From Candidatus Zixiibacteriota bacterium (GTDB taxonomy: Bacteria; Zixibacteria; MSB-5A5; GN15; JACZUZ01), in assembly GCA_024280835.1 (NCBI GenBank), contig JAJRPJ010000008.1, forward strand, positions 1 through 64,000: 64,000 nt of DNA, in the 5' to 3' direction. The notes beneath the pieces are model-generated. The model made no database searches and was not told the DNA's origin. It saw only the letters and a program-made list of their open reading frames with translations. Positions 5,776 through 13,734 of the stretch are shown here, piece by piece. The translations under genes and the position numbers were made by a program. Numbering within the stretch: the first letter of the stretch is position 1; each line of letters opens with the position of its first letter.

Positions 5776-8133
5776 ATGGCGCCTACCCCTAAAATCCGTC
5801 AGGACCTAATAAGTTCCCGTCAGGAAACGAAAATTCGTGACGGAGAGTCTGGCCAAGTATTTGTAGTCATCAAAGACCCGCGCACTGGTCGCTATTTTCG
5901 TGTTCGTGAGCCCGAGTTTTGGCTGATCAATCAATTCGATGGGAAAAGCACCGCAGAAGAGGTTGCTCAGCGTTTTGCTGATAAATTCAGGATGGCGCTG
6001 CCAATAGAAGCCGTCGAGGCTTTCGCCAACAAACTAGATTCACTTTTCTTCCTCGATACCGAACGCGCCGAATATGAGTCCAGTCGCGCTGTACATAGCG
6101 CAGAGGGAGCCGAAAACCGCTCTGCGCTCTCCAAGCTATTGTTTATCAAACTTGTAGCAATGGACCCGACAAACTTTCTCAATGCTCTTTTGAAGGTCTA
6201 CCGTCCTCTGCACGGCAAGCTATTGTTCGCTTTGTCTTGGGCGTTTATGCTTTTTGGATTGAGTGTTATGTGGGCCAATTTGAGCGCTTTCTCGCATGGA
6301 CTGTATGATATTTTCACTCTGGGATCGATTTTCACAGCTATGTTCGCATTGGCTCTTGTGATTTTCATCCACGAATTGGCACATGCAATTACCTGTCGCT
6401 TGCATGGCGGGCAAGTCACTGAAGTTGGTTTTTTGCTACTTTATTTTCAGCCCTGCTTCTTCACCGATCTCTCGGATGCTTGGTTATTTTCCCAGATGAA
6501 GCATCGTTTGGCGGTCATATGGGCTGGGCCGTTCATGCAGCTTTTGACTTTGGCAGCCATGGCCATAGTATGGCGCGTGACAGTCATCGGCTCAACAATC
6601 AATCTAATCGCCCAGATCAGCGCGATTGTCTCTTTGGTGACAATTCTCTTTAATTTCAACCCACTTATTAAGCTGGACGGCTACTACTTACTCTCCGACT
6701 GGCTGGAAATCCCCAACCTGCGCCGAAAAGCATTCCAGTATTTTGGCTCATGGTTCAGGCAAGTCGCTCTCGGAATCAAGGCCGACTCAGATAGACCAGA
6801 AGAATTCACGCCCCGCGAGCGGAAAATTTTTGTCCGCTATGCCCTCTTGTCGATTACCTACTCTGTGGTATTGCTGACGTATATAGGTGTAATAGTTGGA
6901 ACCTGGCTGATAGAATCGTTTGGGATAGTTGGCGCGCTGGTATTGATTGCAACTCCGTTGTATATTCTCAGAAGAGAGTTATTAGCAAGTATTCGCTATT
7001 TATCGAGCCCAATAAACGCCATGAAAAATATCTTCAACAATCCACTGCGCGGAATTATCTACTCAATAGTGGCCTTAGCTCTAGTAGCCGTGGTCTTCTT
7101 TGTCCAAGTTGACGAAAAAGTCAGTGGTACTGTCGAGCTGTTTCCTCTGCAACGTTTTTCTATCAGCGCTGGAGTTGGTGGACGAATCGTTACTGAAAGA
7201 CGCACCTGTGGCAAGCGGCCAGATCTAGAAACAGGCTATTTGAATATGAGTTCGCTTGACCTCTCGGCATTGAGTATTCGCAAAAGAGTCAGTGTCGGCC
7301 AAAAAGTTGCAACTGGAGACACCCTGTTGGTTCTCCAATCAAATCAGGTAACCTCAGACTTGGAAGTCGCCAGATCCGCTCTGGCAACACTCAGGGCTCG
7401 TCTGGCTCTGCTGAAATCTCCACCGAAAGCTGAAAGCTTGATGGTACTAACCGCCGAAGCAGAGGCCTACGAATCTGAATATCAACGCGCGACATCTGAA
7501 CTAAAACGCAAGCGTGAGCTGTACGACAAGAATTTGATTGCGAAAAACGAGCTTGAAGACTCGCAGTCGGCGCTGGAAGTCAGTTCTTCAAAATGGAAAT
7601 CCGCAAAATCTCTGGTGGAGCTTCACCGCTCTCCACCCAAACCCGAAGAAGAAGCGGTCATCCAAAGCGACATCGACCAACAGCAGGCGCGCACGGCTTT
7701 CCTCGAATCCCAAGTAGCCGCGCAAGTAATACTCAGCCCCTTTGACGGTAAGATTGTCGAATCCGCGGACCAGAGTGAGTTCTTGGTCGTTATAGATGAA
7801 GGACAAATAGAAGCGCGGATTCATGTCTCAGATTACGATCTGACAAAAATTGAACTCGGTCAGTTGACGCTCCTGCGAGTGCGAAGCCATAACGCTCAAA
7901 CATACCAAGGGCAAGTCAACCGCATCAGCCAAGTTGGAGCTAATTTTGAAGCCCAGTCTCCAGAATCAACTGGTGATTTTGTTGTTGCAGCTATCTATGA
8001 CAACCCCAATGGACTCTTGAGACCTGGAATGAGTGGCTATGCCAAGATAGTTGTCGGCCAAAAGAGCATCTTCGGACTCGCTAAGCAAAAAATTCGCTCC
8101 TTTATTCGTGTAGAGTTCTGGTCTCTTTGGTAG
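5776..8133 (+). CDS. PqqD/RRE-like, M50 protease and HlyD-like adaptor fusion
   Basis: 785 residues in three parts. Residues 10-95 resemble a PqqD-like wHTH domain (RRE), the fold that binds leader peptides in modified-peptide pathways. Residues 120-440 are polytopic and carry the zinc motif HELAH (199-203) and the distal NFNPLIKLDGYY motif of M50 metalloproteases. Residues 440-785 hold a lipoyl-like beta-barrel flanking a long coiled coil (about 535-665), as in HlyD/membrane-fusion adaptors. Proteins of this layout accompany peptide and bacteriocin export or maturation loci. It is divergent from the upstream acetyltransferase. A short peptide gene lies downstream on the same strand. No ABC transporter or radical-SAM gene is adjacent. 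Substrate unknown. Confidence 0.85.
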   Translation: MAPTPKIRQDLISSRQETKIRDGESGQVFVVIKDPRTGRYFRVREPEFWLINQFDGKSTAEEVAQRFADKFRMALPIEAVEAFANKLDSLFFLDTERAEYESSRAVHSAEGAENRSALSKLLFIKLVAMDPTNFLNALLKVYRPLHGKLLFALSWAFMLFGLSVMWANLSAFSHGLYDIFTLGSIFTAMFALALVIFIHELAHAITCRLHGGQVTEVGFLLLYFQPCFFTDLSDAWLFSQMKHRLAVIWAGPFMQLLTLAAMAIVWRVTVIGSTINLIAQISAIVSLVTILFNFNPLIKLDGYYLLSDWLEIPNLRRKAFQYFGSWFRQVALGIKADSDRPEEFTPRERKIFVRYALLSITYSVVLLTYIGVIVGTWLIESFGIVGALVLIATPLYILRRELLASIRYLSSPINAMKNIFNNPLRGIIYSIVALALVAVVFFVQVDEKVSGTVELFPLQRFSISAGVGGRIVTERRTCGKRPDLETGYLNMSSLDLSALSIRKRVSVGQKVATGDTLLVLQSNQVTSDLEVARSALATLRARLALLKSPPKAESLMVLTAEAEAYESEYQRATSELKRKRELYDKNLIAKNELEDSQSALEVSSSKWKSAKSLVELHRSPPKPEEEAVIQSDIDQQQARTAFLESQVAAQVILSPFDGKIVESADQSEFLVVIDEGQIEARIHVSDYDLTKIELGQLTLLRVRSHNAQTYQGQVNRISQVGANFEAQSPESTGDFVVAAIYDNPNGLLRPGMSGYAKIVVGQKSIFGLAKQKIRSFIRVEFWSLW

Positions 8134-8480
8134 GACTACATAACACATTGTGATATAATTGATTACATCTAGAAACTAACTCACGCTTTCCCCGTATATA
8201 CAGCAATATGTAGGCCTTTCAGCTAGGCTGGGGGCCTCAACGAGGCCGAAAAAGCACTTGACAGGAGAGCAGATAAGTCTATCTTTGAAAGTAAGCAGGT
8301 TGCTTCTGGGTCAATATGACTAGATCATTATGTAATGACATGGAAGTGGGCTTAATAACACGGAAGTAGTATGGATTCTCACCTGAGTTTCCATCAGACA
8401 AAAATGAATCACACCTGGTCTGTCACCCTTGCCTGATGACTGAGGCGTAGGTGGTTGGTTCGGGATCATTTATAAACAGG
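8134..8480 (+). other. Non-coding leader region before the peptide gene
   Basis: About 350 bases with no convincing open frame. It holds a GC-rich hairpin GGCCTC/GAGGCC at 8233-8247, a promoter-like pair at 8258-8285, a near-repeat with 20-bp period (CATGGAAGT at 8339, CACGGAAGT at 8359) and several small inverted repeats including GCCT/AGGC (8431-8446) nested within CACCT/AGGTG (8412-8453). If transcription starts near 8292, the peptide gene has a structured leader of roughly 200 nt. Confidence 0.5.
8258..8285 (+). promoter_or_regulatory. Candidate sigma70 promoter for the peptide transcript
   Basis: A perfect TTGACA at 8258-8263 is followed after 16 bases by TATCTT at 8280-8285, which matches four of six -10 positions. 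It lies ahead of the 25-residue peptide gene and the terminator at 8678, on the same strand. Supported by motif only. Confidence 0.45.
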
Positions 8481-8485
8481 ATGAG

Positions 8486-8495
8486 AGGAGGTGAT
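8486..8495 (+). promoter_or_regulatory. Perfect Shine-Dalgarno site of the peptide gene
   Basis: AGGAGGTGAT is fully complementary to the usual 3' end of 16S rRNA. Its AGGAGG core ends 7 bases before the TTG at 8499, an ideal spacing. It decides the start in favour of TTG 8499 over the in-frame ATG at 8481, which overlaps the site. This is among the strongest ribosome-binding sites seen in the window. Confidence 0.85.
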
Positions 8496-8498
8496 TCT

Positions 8499-8576
8499 TT
8501 GGAAAAATATACATTAGCCATTGAAGAGCTTGAGACAAAAATTGCTCCAATTGGCATCAGTCAAGGTGGTCAATAA
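8499..8576 (+). CDS. 25-residue peptide, candidate modified/exported peptide precursor
   Basis: A TTG-initiated frame of 25 codons ending in TAA, preceded by a perfect Shine-Dalgarno sequence and followed by a strong intrinsic terminator, so the unit looks genuinely expressed. The product begins MEKYTLAIEE, continues LETKIA and ends PIGISQGGQ. It has an acidic amphipathic helix-like half and a small Gly/Ile/Pro/Gln tail. There is no Cys and no signal peptide. A leader-plus-core layout is conceivable (EELETKIA as leader-like, the last 8-9 residues as core). The gene lies 365 bases beyond a protein with RRE-like, M50 and HlyD-like parts. I do not recognise a family. It could instead be a leader peptide or signalling peptide. 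Confidence 0.6.
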   Translation: MEKYTLAIEELETKIAPIGISQGGQ

Positions 8577-8677
8577 GCAGATAAGAACTGCTGAAGACGA
8601 GCTTTTCTAGGCGTCTTCGACACTTCTGCATTATTGATACCGATACAAAAAGTGTTGCCACATTGTGTGTCAACCAA

Positions 8678-8713
8678 GAAGGTGGGATGTTCGCGCATCC
8701 CACCTTCTCTTTT
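8678..8713 (+). terminator. Intrinsic terminator after the peptide gene
   Basis: A perfect 12-bp stem GAAGGTGGGATG/CATCCCACCTTC (8678-8689 with 8696-8707) closed by TTCGCG, followed by TCTTTTT on the plus strand. No T-tract follows on the other strand, so it serves the plus-strand transcript and not the converging kinase gene. A weaker stem GAAGACG/CGTCTTC lies at 8593-8618. Confidence 0.9.
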
Positions 8714-8789
8714 TGGGTCCTACAAACTTGTAGGCTAGAAACTCTATCCTAGGAAGCCCTTTACCTAAGAAACAATTTATCTCAACAAA

Positions 8790-11700
8790 TTATGTGACAT
8801 TCAGTTTTTTCTTGAGTTGCATGATTTCAACCGACATGCGACTCATGAACGGTTGATGAGTGAAAGCGTGTACACTTTCTTTATCAGGCAAAACCTCTGC
8901 CAACTGCCGAATCGATTGCATAGCTCGCCTTAAGGCCGCATAACTCTCTTCATACTCACCACACTTGGAGCCAATCTCTGCGAGGACTATTTCCAACTTC
9001 CACGAGTGACAACACTCGCCCACTGTGTGAGCGCCTCTGTCGACTTCACGCAAACGGACGTAGAGAGTTTTCAACTCGTCTTGCTCGAGTTCAGAGGTCA
9101 GCATTTGAATCTCCGCCCAAACTCGCTCAAAAATTAGCAGATCCACATCCTCGGTAACACTTCCAAAAAACTTTGCTGCCTGATTGAGATGCTCCCCTGC
9201 TGTACTTGTTGCGCCATCGGCGAGATGACACTCAACCAGCGCCAGCTCACATAGCGCTATATCACGCGGAGCCCTTGTGTCCTGAGCTAATTCAAGAGCC
9301 CGACTTAGACTCTCACTATTGCGCGCAGCCCTAACAAGAAAACATTGTATTTGCGACTGCTTGTCGCCAATTTCCTGCGCAAGCTTTGTTGCCTGCTCAA
9401 CACAATGAGTATTCTTTTCTTCTAGACGCAATTGACGATATAACTCAGCCTGCAGAAGTAGGCAGCTAACCTCCAAGACCTTGTCGGCCAGCTCTTGCGC
9501 AACTACTGCACTCCGCTGTGCCAAATGTAGCGCATGGTCCCAGCGTCCAGTCCGCAAGAATATTCTCGCAAGCCTCAAATCAAAAATCGCTTTGCTATGA
9601 TTGTCATGTAGCTCCTCGGCAATCTCACGGGCGCGTCTGATATGTGAAAGCGCCTCGGAAAATCGTCCAGCGGTGATTGCGCAAGAGACAAAATTATCAA
9701 GATTTGTCAGAACTTCCTTCTGACTGCTTTCCACTTCATTGATTTCCAGCGCTTCTTCCAAAACCTCTAGCGCCTCGGGAAGTCTGCCTTGTAAGTAGAA
9801 GGTAAAGCCAAGGTTGTTGAGCGTGCGGGCTATTTCAGCGCCGTTGTCCAGCTTGCGCTTCATGGTCAGTGAGAGTTGATAAATATGAATCGCTCGGTCC
9901 GTTCGTCCTGTGACAGCATAAACCGAGGCAATGTTGTTTACTGTAGAAGAGATATCTGCTAGGTCGTTTCTTCGACGATGGAGTTTAAGGGCTTGACGGT
10001 AAGAGTTCAAGGCGGCATCGTATTTTGATACAATCCAGTAAATGTTGCCCATGTTGTTTGTCACTCGCGCTAGCTCGGCGGTATCGTTAAGTTCCTGATA
10101 GAGAGCTTCAGCTTTCGTCAAAGCAATCAAACCAGCAGTGAAGTCTTGCCTAAGTTTGTAGAGATCGCCAAGGTCTTTGTAGGTTTCAGCAAGAATGCGC
10201 GTTCCACTCGCTTCGGGTAGATCAACTATACGTTTATAGCGCACTTCTGCCCCGCTCAAATCACCAGAGTCTCGGCGAATATCGGCGTCGCGATGTAATG
10301 TCTCAATAAGGATATCAGCATCGCCCAGTTTCTCTGCGGCGGCGGAAATTTTTCCCAGCAACTGTAATGATTCGATTTGACGATTTTCACTCTTCAGAGC
10401 CGCACAGTATTTGAAAGCGCTCTTTGAGCTAGCGGCAAGTTGCTCTGACTGCAATTGTAAAGTCGCCAAGAGATCAAGCGCATCGTCCTCAACCAACTTT
10501 GAGTCCAATGTATCCGCTAAAAAGCGTGACTGGTTCTTGACTGTAACATCGGACAAATCCCCTCGCACTGTTTCCACTAACGATGAATTGGCGATTCCGA
10601 GTCTCAAGCTCGACGGCGGTGAAATTACCTGCAACAACTGCACTACATCACCAGCCACCGCACAGCGAATAATCCATTTGGCCTCCGTGATAGTCAGTTT
10701 TGAAAATTCATTTCGCTCCCACTGTCGTAGTCGATGCGGCCAATTGTAGATGTGGAAGTCTGGCGCCGCGCTAATAGCTCCGTCAGTCCAAACAATCTTT
10801 TTCTCTCTAAATGTTGAATCGAGAATTATACGAATCTTACTAACATCGCCACTGCTAATTCGCTGTAGATAATTGCGGGCTGGCAAATTGAAACCAGGTA
10901 GTGTCGACAAGGTTTCAACATCATATACCGTGCTAGATATCAATAGGTGACGCGGTTGAATGGCTTTGCGGAACGGGTGCAAAGCCCCCTGCTTTTCTAA
11001 TTGCTCACAAACAGCAAATCCATTTTTGGGCCGTAGCGCTGGCTCTTTGGCCATTAGCGAATCTATTAGCTTCGCCAAATCTGTTGGAAACCCTGAAATT
11101 ACTTTATCCAAACGAGGCGGCGAAAACTCAGTTACTGCCGCGGCTATTTCAGCGGGGTCTTCTGTGTCTTCCAGAAAAGGATGCTTGCCACAAGCGAGAA
11201 AATAGGCGCTTACCCCTAGTGAAAAAAGGTCGGCTTGGTTAGTCAAAGCGCGTTGCGATGACTTATCAGCTATAGGTGATTCTGCAATCAGTATCTCTGG
11301 AGCGCTATACCCCAAAGTCCCGATACCCAATCGCTTCTCTGGAGCTTCGCCAACCAATACTCCCATAGAAAAATCAATTAGGCGAGGATGAAAGAGACGA
11401 TTGAAATCATGGTCACCCGCCAAAACTTCTTTTGGCAGAAATATATTGTGTGGTTTGATATCCCCATGAACAACTGATTTCAACTCAAGATAGTAGAGAG
11501 TCATCGACAGCGCAGAGATTACTTCTCGCAAAAGCGTGGGAGGCATTTTGCTTGAAGCGTCAAACAATGACATACCGTCAATAACGGGCATTATCAGCCC
11601 CGCTTCGGGAGCGCCATCCAAGACTAGAGAAACTGGAACAACTGAGGGATGCTTTAGATATTTGGTGAGTTCAAGCTCGCGACAAACAACTTGCCGAAAG

Positions 11701-11906
11701 TTCTCAGTTTGATTGTCGATTGAATCGACGACACTCTCATTTGGAAAAGAGTACTTGTATGCGAACTGACTACCGTCAGACTCTCGCTGAACTAGGGCAA
11801 CTTTGGACGTACCACCAGCGCCAAGAATATCGAGGACACTATATTCTTCTGGCAAGCAAGCTGTTGCGCTATTAGTCTTCTTTTGGTTTGTCGTCGGCAT
11901 TTTCAC
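8790..11906 (-). CDS. Ser/Thr protein kinase with TPR array
   Basis: 1038 residues. The N-terminal 290 form a Hanks-type kinase: glycine loop LGAGGTSKV (28-36), ATP-binding Lys51 in FAYKYS, catalytic HGDIKPHN (147-154), metal-binding DFS (178-180) in place of DFG, and the APE segment (202-204). A short linker is followed by tetratricopeptide repeats from about residue 500 to 1000 (for example NNMGNIYWIVSKYDAALNSY). No transmembrane helix is evident. Soluble kinase-TPR proteins act as signalling scaffolds; the targets are unknown. The start overlaps the 3' end of the histidine kinase gene by 35 bases, so the two are probably translated together. Confidence 0.92.
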   Translation of the reverse strand: MKMPTTNQKKTNSATACLPEEYSVLDILGAGGTSKVALVQRESDGSQFAYKYSFPNESVVDSIDNQTENFRQVVCRELELTKYLKHPSVVPVSLVLDGAPEAGLIMPVIDGMSLFDASSKMPPTLLREVISALSMTLYYLELKSVVHGDIKPHNIFLPKEVLAGDHDFNRLFHPRLIDFSMGVLVGEAPEKRLGIGTLGYSAPEILIAESPIADKSSQRALTNQADLFSLGVSAYFLACGKHPFLEDTEDPAEIAAAVTEFSPPRLDKVISGFPTDLAKLIDSLMAKEPALRPKNGFAVCEQLEKQGALHPFRKAIQPRHLLISSTVYDVETLSTLPGFNLPARNYLQRISSGDVSKIRIILDSTFREKKIVWTDGAISAAPDFHIYNWPHRLRQWERNEFSKLTITEAKWIIRCAVAGDVVQLLQVISPPSSLRLGIANSSLVETVRGDLSDVTVKNQSRFLADTLDSKLVEDDALDLLATLQLQSEQLAASSKSAFKYCAALKSENRQIESLQLLGKISAAAEKLGDADILIETLHRDADIRRDSGDLSGAEVRYKRIVDLPEASGTRILAETYKDLGDLYKLRQDFTAGLIALTKAEALYQELNDTAELARVTNNMGNIYWIVSKYDAALNSYRQALKLHRRRNDLADISSTVNNIASVYAVTGRTDRAIHIYQLSLTMKRKLDNGAEIARTLNNLGFTFYLQGRLPEALEVLEEALEINEVESSQKEVLTNLDNFVSCAITAGRFSEALSHIRRAREIAEELHDNHSKAIFDLRLARIFLRTGRWDHALHLAQRSAVVAQELADKVLEVSCLLLQAELYRQLRLEEKNTHCVEQATKLAQEIGDKQSQIQCFLVRAARNSESLSRALELAQDTRAPRDIALCELALVECHLADGATSTAGEHLNQAAKFFGSVTEDVDLLIFERVWAEIQMLTSELEQDELKTLYVRLREVDRGAHTVGECCHSWKLEIVLAEIGSKCGEYEESYAALRRAMQSIRQLAEVLPDKESVHAFTHQPFMSRMSVEIMQLKKKLNVT

Positions 11907-13734
11907 GTTTCAACGGAAGGGCCAGACGGAACATAGTTCCTTCGCCATGTTTTGACTTCACGGTCAACTCGCCACCGTGACGCGCAGCAATTTTTTTGCA
12001 ATTTGCCAGACCAAGTCCATGACCACTCTCCTTGGTAGTAAAGTGCGGACGGAATAGATTCTTAAGAGTTTCTTCGGTCATTCCAATTGCATTATCAATC
12101 ACTTCGGCGATAATATATTCACTATTCTCGTCGACTCGTACATTGATACCCAGTCGTTTTTCAAAGCTCGATTCTTCGCTTTTTGCTTCGGCGGATTCTT
12201 TTTCGTTCTTTTCGCGCTCCTCAAGAGCGTCGGCAGCGTTATTGAACAGATTGAGAAATATCTGTTGAATCTGGCCGACATCAATACTGATTTTGGGGAT
12301 TGATGCATCAATATCGGTTGTAAACAATATCTCTTTGAATCGTGTTTGCGCTCGTAGTGAGAACAATAGGTCTTCTACAAGATGCTTCAAATCATAGCGT
12401 AGGAAATCACTATCTAACTTGCTGGAGTCCATCAAGCCGTCGGTGAAGCGCTTCATGCCACTGATGTTCTCAGTAATTCTCTGGCAGTTAAAATGAACCT
12501 TGTCAAAGTTCTCTGACTTGAGATTGCGTTCAAGCAATTCAGCGTTATTGTTTATGATAGTCAAATAATTATTTAGCTCATGACCAATTGACGCAGCCAT
12601 TTCTCCGCGCGCCACGAGTTTCTCAGAGAGAATAACATACTTCTCCAAAATCACATTCTCGGTGATATCTTCAATCGCCAAGATCAATCCGTCACCTCCA
12701 AGAGGTAGTTTGCTAAGCGGAGAGAGTTTGATACTTAAGGCTTTCTCGACATAACCGGTATTATGAAAATAGCGAGAATCTTCGAATGCCTGCTGGGTAT
12801 TGAAGGCTATATCGATCATTTGACGCCAACGCGGGGTTTCGCTCTCTGGAACGATGTCAAAGAATCGTGTTGGGTTTTCAGAGCTCCCAACAATTGTAAC
12901 TTGCTCTTTGTTCTTATCGAAGATCGACAAACCAGCGTCATTGATTGAAACAATTTGATATTGTGCGTCAATCACCAATCTCCCAACTGGGGATTTGTTA
13001 ATAATGTTTTCTGTGAAGTGTTTCAGATCCAAGAGATGCTCATAGAGTGACGCATTATGAATCGCCGAAGCGGCCAATCCTGCTAGAAGCTGAAAAACAT
13101 ACAAATCAGATTTAAGAAAGTGTTTACTCTTAAGCGAATGATCTAAGTAGATAACACCAATAATATTTTGCTTGAGCTTCAAAGGCACACAAATAATAGA
13201 ACGCAAGTGTAACTCTTGAATGGAAGCCTGCTCGGCAAATCTGTCATCATCTTGTGCATCCGAGGCAAAAATTGCTTTACCTGTTTTGGCGACTTTACTG
13301 GCAATACTATTGGAAATTCGTAGTCCATTGCCGGAGAGCTCTTTGGTGGAAATATTGTATGCCGTCTTACACTGCAAAACGCCAAAGTCATCAAGTAGCA
13401 TGATGAATCCGCGCTCAGCCCCGAGTAACTCAATTGCGTTCTTCATGACATGCTCAAGCGTGTCTTCAAGACGCATTGTCGAATTGATACCGAGGGAAAT
13501 CTCCAGCAGAGCCTGCAAGTCCTCGGTAGATTGGTTTGCTGTGTCAGCAGATTCCTGAATTCTGGGCTCGTGCCTAGCAATATCCCGCAATTGGTCTTCA
13601 AACTCTTGTAGAATAGATCCAGTCTCATTGAAAGGATCTTTTTCGATTTCTCTCGTAGCGGAGCTATCTAAGAATGTAGGTAGAGGACGGGAGTCCGATG
13701 ACTCTTGACCAGATTTCGATTTTGAATCTTCCAT
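11872..13734 (-). CDS. GAF-PAS sensor histidine kinase
   Basis: 620 residues, cytoplasmic. A GAF domain spans about 75-225, a PAS domain about 240-355, a dimerisation/phosphoacceptor segment has His385 in SIGHELNNYLT, and a GHKL ATPase domain carries the N box (NLFNNAADALEE), a G1-like VIDNAIGM and the G2 HGLGLANCKK. The input domains suggest sensing of a small ligand or redox state. No response regulator is encoded nearby. The overlap with the Ser/Thr kinase gene suggests a mixed His/Ser-Thr signalling pair. A hairpin ACACC/GGTGT lies just upstream of the start. Confidence 0.93.
   Translation of the reverse strand: MEDSKSKSGQESSDSRPLPTFLDSSATREIEKDPFNETGSILQEFEDQLRDIARHEPRIQESADTANQSTEDLQALLEISLGINSTMRLEDTLEHVMKNAIELLGAERGFIMLLDDFGVLQCKTAYNISTKELSGNGLRISNSIASKVAKTGKAIFASDAQDDDRFAEQASIQELHLRSIICVPLKLKQNIIGVIYLDHSLKSKHFLKSDLYVFQLLAGLAASAIHNASLYEHLLDLKHFTENIINKSPVGRLVIDAQYQIVSINDAGLSIFDKNKEQVTIVGSSENPTRFFDIVPESETPRWRQMIDIAFNTQQAFEDSRYFHNTGYVEKALSIKLSPLSKLPLGGDGLILAIEDITENVILEKYVILSEKLVARGEMAASIGHELNNYLTIINNNAELLERNLKSENFDKVHFNCQRITENISGMKRFTDGLMDSSKLDSDFLRYDLKHLVEDLLFSLRAQTRFKEILFTTDIDASIPKISIDVGQIQQIFLNLFNNAADALEEREKNEKESAEAKSEESSFEKRLGINVRVDENSEYIIAEVIDNAIGMTEETLKNLFRPHFTTKESGHGLGLANCKKIAARHGGELTVKSKHGEGTMFRLALPLKRENADDKPKED

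Follow-up and report, generated by a model that had tools for sequence, protein, structure and literature searches.

A conserved 25-codon gene in the genome of a Zixiibacteriota bacterium probably encodes the precursor in a minimal system of two genes that matures and exports a peptide, and this peptide is likely to be an extracellular signal. The gene (8499–8576) is on contig JAJRPJ010000008.1, in the 64,000-nucleotide stretch that we analyzed, which we refer to as the window. Its partner is an RRE–M50–HlyD fusion protein encoded upstream. We describe the gene and its conservation, the evidence that the two genes are inherited together, and the other explanations that must be weighed.

A 25-codon gene in its own transcription unit

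The peptide gene is in a small, complete transcription unit at 8258–8714 of the window, with a promoter, a Shine-Dalgarno (SD) site, a TTG-started frame, and a terminator. The features are as follows.

8258..8285, + strand: sigma70-like promoter, TTGACA-16-TATCTT, read directly and kept in congener G001
8292..8498, + strand: predicted 5′ untranslated region (5′ UTR)
8486..8495, + strand: near-perfect SD site AGGAGGTGAT, read directly; a strong and suitably spaced SD precedes nearly all inspected homologues
8499..8576, + strand: precursor peptide gene MEKYTLAIEELETKIAPIGISQGGQ*, 25 codons, stop codon TAA at 8574–8576
8499..8549, + strand: leader MEKYTLAIEELETKIAP, codons 1–17, with the invariant columns and a match to the daptide motif at four positions
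8550..8573, + strand: core IGISQGGQ, codons 18–25, the predicted released product; tails vary in homologues
8677..8714, + strand: intrinsic terminator, a 13-bp stem (8677–8689/8696–8708) and then CTTTTT

A sequence-only reading of this DNA had proposed a stand-alone transcript with a promoter-like pair, an SD whose AGGAGG core is seven bases before a TTG, a 25-codon frame, and a terminator with a 12-bp stem. Direct inspection agreed with all of this except the length of the stem, which is 13 bp. The −35 (TTGACA, 8258–8263) and −10 (TATCTT, 8280–8285) hexamers are 16 nt apart, and both hexamers and their spacing are identical in G001. The SD core is 7 nt from the start codon at 8499. The terminator is stable relative to shuffles (z = −6.6), and its counterpart in G001 (z −4.7) has changed pairs in the stem. 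With its own promoter and its own terminator, the unit does appear to stand alone. Across homologues, sigma70-like promoters scoring at least 10/12 precede 56% of peptide units but only 6.7% of shuffles, which preserved base composition but not dinucleotides.

The noncoding part of the unit at 8401–8498 is conserved in G001 (blastn, about 83% over window 8401–8572), and no counterpart was recognized in other genera. The 5′ UTR had no Rfam family match at gathering, and a permissive Rfam search gave chance matches only. A structured RNA at 8398–8484 was rejected (z about 0 in the window). At order and class loci, a hairpin of varying sequence is often found 15–80 nt upstream of the peptide start (z < −2 in 38% of peptide units versus 12% in a control stretch). 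In some of these, pairing between the 5′ arm and the SD is possible.

To find homologues we ran tblastn with relaxed limits beside M50–HlyD genes, as the sequence-only reading had suggested. Of 80 genomes of the order, 58 have homologous peptides with strong SDs, a recurrence well in excess of chance. A peptide profile matched 105 of 132 class genomes at E ≤ 0.1 and 103 of 132 phylum genomes at E ≤ 0.001 (both sets have 132 members). Most of the related genomes were assembled from metagenomes, and many are incomplete. G001 encodes MEKYDLAIEELEAKIAPIGISQGGQRWGGFGGG at the equivalent position, and the pN/pS ratio between it and the window gene is about 0.18. Over 26 pairs the ratio is 0.115, which is biased low because the pairs were picked by amino acid similarity. 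The absence of conservation and of synonymous bias, named in advance as what would refute a coding gene, was not seen. The sequence at 8499–8576 is a real conserved gene under purifying selection.

No protein family in the databases searched covers the peptide, as the first reading had also stated. A scan of genome contigs for spread beyond Zixibacteria confirmed 26 loci, none of them titled as another phylum. It relied on a single short pattern and could have overlooked distant forms elsewhere. About four-fifths of the sequenced Zixibacteria genomes retain the peptide, together with one dedicated membrane protease–exporter protein (see below), which suggests that most of the phylum makes and secretes a small peptide that is absent from the databases and papers searched. 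Some genomes have two peptide genes with different tails (L171 and L172 in G089; L169 and L170 in G087/G088). Those in G089 are at separate places, and one adjoins the M50 gene.

A constant leader and a variable tail

The leader consensus Y.L.[IV]E.LE.[KR][IV]AP is constant across the family. In an alignment of 41 sequences, all of the invariant columns (L6, E9, L11, E12, and P17) are within the first 17 residues. In 108 homologues, the tail after P17 has 6–20 residues, most commonly 8, and its composition is 49% Gly plus Ser and 6% charged. There are 90 distinct tails among the 108 sequences, and 64 contain GGQ or GGE. The usual ending is S.GGQ. Some tails extend beyond GGQ (RWGGFGGG, FRIGP, and LLRGGGGG), and those of distant families end in GSASNGSS, AGYSGAGS, or ISVGGG. 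The peptide had been divided beforehand into a charged, leader-like half and a PIGISQGGQ tail. The division stands, with the leader as the conserved half and the tail as the variable one, but the boundary moves. Because the leader ends at Pro17, the product is likely to be IGISQGGQ and not PIGISQGGQ.

The peptide gene has been amplified in one genus, g37, which has arrays of 4–7 copies (seven in G053, four in G051, and five in G054). These peptides have the same leader, followed by tails such as SRYGAE, SKYGSSR, SRWGTD, and SRFGVDDIDSPCGLANHSVS. This pattern, in which the leader stays constant while the tail varies and the copies multiply, is characteristic of a precursor family.

In the g37 arrays (L229, L231, L230, and L087; G053, G051, and G054), the motif GTAAG-N15-CAAATA is just upstream of nearly every peptide SD, where it replaces the sigma70 promoter. 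G054 has a further copy about 70 nt before its M50 gene. Only one match was found in 600 kb of other order loci. Judged by its letters alone, it looks like an alternative-sigma promoter.

The partner is an RRE–M50–HlyD fusion protein

The gene upstream of the peptide gene has the following features.

5776..8133, + strand: RRE–M50–HlyD fusion protein, 785 aa, from NCBIfam/Pfam matches; the co-inherited partner
5776..6090, + strand: predicted N-terminal RRE (PqqD-like) domain, residues 1–105, from AlphaFold2 and Foldseek
6370..6384, + strand: HELAH (HExxH) zinc motif of the M50 domain; H199, E200, and H203 are invariant in the alignment

The open reading frame ends at 8133, and the 365 bases originally counted between it and the peptide start codon at 8499 are correct. 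The protein matches NCBIfam daptide_HExxH (2.7e-64; 217.7 bits, below the cut-off of 300), YydH/LiaK (2.8e-11), and Pfam Peptidase_M50 and HlyD_3. An AlphaFold2 model of residues 1–105 (pLDDT 84) was compared with the PDB by using Foldseek. It matched the TbiB1–leader complexes 5v1u/5v1v (probability 1.00), PqqD (5sxy), and lasso B1 (6jx3). The probabilities are about 1, but the E values are 4e-3 and weaker. The predicted model therefore supports an RRE fold at the N terminus, like that of RREs solved with leader peptides. The protease motif is intact; HExxH (H199, E200, and H203) and NPLxKLDGYY are conserved in 19 homologues. The model of the full-length M50–HlyD protein is of no more than moderate quality (pTM 0.42).

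Most families of the order, along with several others, have the M50–HlyD gene just before the peptide gene, at a distance of about 150–560 nt. In the remaining families it is elsewhere in the genome (for example, about 22 kb away in family f3). Among 132 genomes, 97 have both genes, 7 have only the peptide, 4 have only M50, and 24 have neither (Fisher P = 3e-16). Three HlyD-only matches and one probably spurious peptide match had been removed by hand. The P value is only indicative, given that the genomes are related to one another and that many are incomplete, and shared inheritance inflates it. Of the seven genomes with only the peptide, at least four have it at a contig end.

The cleanest evidence for a partnership is a joint loss. 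G042 (genus g32) has the gene order CLC–M50–peptide–kinase. In its congeners G043 and G044, the end of the kinase gene comes straight after the CLC gene, and the segment with M50 and the peptide is gone (L225 and L226 versus L064). In addition, G049 has no M50 gene, and the GGQ end of its peptide has decayed. M50–HlyD is thus supported as the co-inherited partner of the peptide. The link to an RRE/M50/HlyD fusion that had been drawn from proximity gains support from this co-inheritance and from the RRE fold. The peptide meets the features of an RRE-dependent leader–core precursor, with a leader and core, multiple copies, an RRE-fold partner, and co-occurrence. Binding of the leader is inferred.

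A proposed mechanism and its alternatives

We propose that the peptide is expressed from its own promoter and that the fusion protein captures its leader (Y.L.IE.LE.KIAP) through the RRE at its cytosolic N terminus. The intramembrane M50 active site would then cut after Ala-Pro. The fused HlyD adaptor would pass the freed Gly/Ser-rich octapeptide, IGISQGGQ in the window, across the diderm envelope. Outside the cell, the product would most likely act as a signal between related cells. Capture by the RRE, the cut after AP, and HlyD-assisted export are inferred from the RRE fold, the conserved M50 motifs, and the daptide-like leader. The absence of further modification and the signaling role are also inferences. 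S.GGQ is strongly conserved in most families, and the tail has diversified in one genus; this combination is easier to reconcile with a signal than with a toxin, although this too is an inference. The core is more conserved than RiPP cores usually are, and so a role other than signaling is possible.

Some observations do not sit easily with a two-gene system. The adjacent genes include neither an exporter ATPase nor TolC, and in several families M50 and the peptide are unlinked. Unknown modifying enzymes encoded elsewhere in the genome cannot be excluded. The strongest form of the proposal is that an unmodified, exported octapeptide from a two-gene RRE-guided system is the common signal of almost a whole uncultured phylum. 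We offer that only as a tentative hypothesis.

The alternative that we take most seriously, while still considering it unlikely, is that the peptide is a true RiPP. Its core, for example the C-terminal GGQ, would be modified by an enzyme encoded elsewhere, and M50–HlyD would act last. RRE domains are found mostly in RiPP pathways, the leader is daptide-like, and the conserved S.GGQ end suggests a fixed chemistry. However, no tailoring gene is common to the neighborhoods of the peptide or M50 genes. We also looked for a shared tailoring enzyme near the unlinked M50 genes, which have no common neighbor set, and found none. YcaO was not found in any of 31 genomes searched. SPASM radical-SAM proteins were not found in 11 of the 31 genomes searched, the window's own among them; G000–G004 and other carriers of the peptide lack them, as does the window's own family. 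Nor is the tail invariant, with 90 distinct tails among 108 sequences.

The peptide gene is convergent with a conserved neighbor.

8790..11906, − strand: Ser/Thr kinase–TPR gene

This gene adjoins the peptide gene in 37 of 40 order loci and in most class loci, even where M50 is elsewhere. Across the phylum, a block next to the peptide is conserved, with the kinase–TPR gene and then a GAF–PAS histidine kinase gene (window 8790–13734; L037–L076 and L164–L203). A role in anti-phage defense was rejected, because M50–HlyD has no PADLOC match and the kinase matches generic kinase models.

TPR proteins bind peptide pheromones in other bacteria. Given that the neighbor is so constant, the peptide might be a ligand or regulator of the kinase–TPR protein and the adjacent histidine kinase, in a cytosolic circuit or as a returning pheromone. 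Several facts make this improbable in our judgment. G043 and G044 retain the kinase without the peptide or M50, whereas g37 (G051–G054) has M50 and many peptides but no detected kinase. These cases also rule out the kinase–TPR protein as an obligate partner. Furthermore, the genes are convergent and do not form an operon.

A short frame with a strong SD and a terminator, and with hairpins enriched in the 5′ UTR, could also be an attenuator leader peptide that controls a downstream gene and has no product of its own. This is very hard to sustain, because the next gene is on the opposite strand, the unit closes with its own terminator, the amino acid sequence is conserved without single-residue runs, and multicopy arrays exist. 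Pup likewise ends in Gly-Gly-Gln/Glu, and one homologue here ends in GGE, but a Pup-like protein tag can be dismissed almost entirely because tails often run past GGQ or lack it, and PF03136 (Pup ligase/Dop) was absent from 21 of 21 genomes while the control genome was positive.

Comparison with known systems

Our preferred reading remains the two-gene maturation and export system. Routine gene calling would pass over so short a frame, yet about four-fifths of the genomes in the phylum retain it. IGISQGGQ is a concrete candidate for a secreted peptide in a phylum known mainly from metagenomes. In the open-licence literature, a search of titles found no description of a RiPP for Zixibacteria, and nothing relevant was found on the combination of PqqD, M50, and HlyD.

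Pup shares only the C-terminal GGQ/GGE with these peptides. There is no ligase or deamidase here, and neither the leader logic nor the length matches. PqqA/PqqD, lasso peptides, and other RRE-dependent RiPPs share an RRE/PqqD-fold leader-binding domain. In contrast to those systems, the RRE here is within a protease–adaptor fusion, and no tailoring enzyme is seen. Epipeptides (YydF, with YydG, the M50 protease YydH, and YydIJ) are also short secreted peptides with a related M50 maturation protease. However, no YydG radical-SAM epimerase is adjacent here, no SPASM radical-SAM match occurs in the window genome, no ABC exporter is adjacent, and both leader and core differ.

The closest comparison is with daptides (MpaA/DapA with the RRE–M50 peptidase MpaP/DapP). 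They too have a short precursor, often several per cluster, and their RRE is likewise part of an intramembrane site-2 protease. In the window peptide the sequence is ELETKIAP|IGISQGGQ, and the family motif [x]LEx[KR][IV]AP is identical to the daptide leader ELExMEAP at L-7, E-6, A-2, and P-1. Position −4 is Lys or Arg here, and −3 is Ile or Val. The L(-7)A variant of the daptide MpaA was no longer modified by MpaB/MpaC, a step that depends on the RRE. Even so, the peptide is not a daptide, because it lacks the C-terminal Thr (tails end in Gln, Gly, Ser, Asp, Glu, and others), has no DapB/C/D/M-type neighbors, and has an M50 protein that scores below the daptide cut-off. Representative neighbors, inspected by sequence only, included no oxidative decarboxylase, aminotransferase, or methyltransferase genes of those types, and the window peptide is flanked only by M50–HlyD and the convergent kinase gene. 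Furthermore, M50 is fused to HlyD here, and the tail is short and rich in Gly and Ser, whereas the daptide core is longer and aliphatic. Our reading would extend the logic of RRE and site-2 protease, familiar from natural products that are modified, to a system of two genes in which no tailoring is evident.
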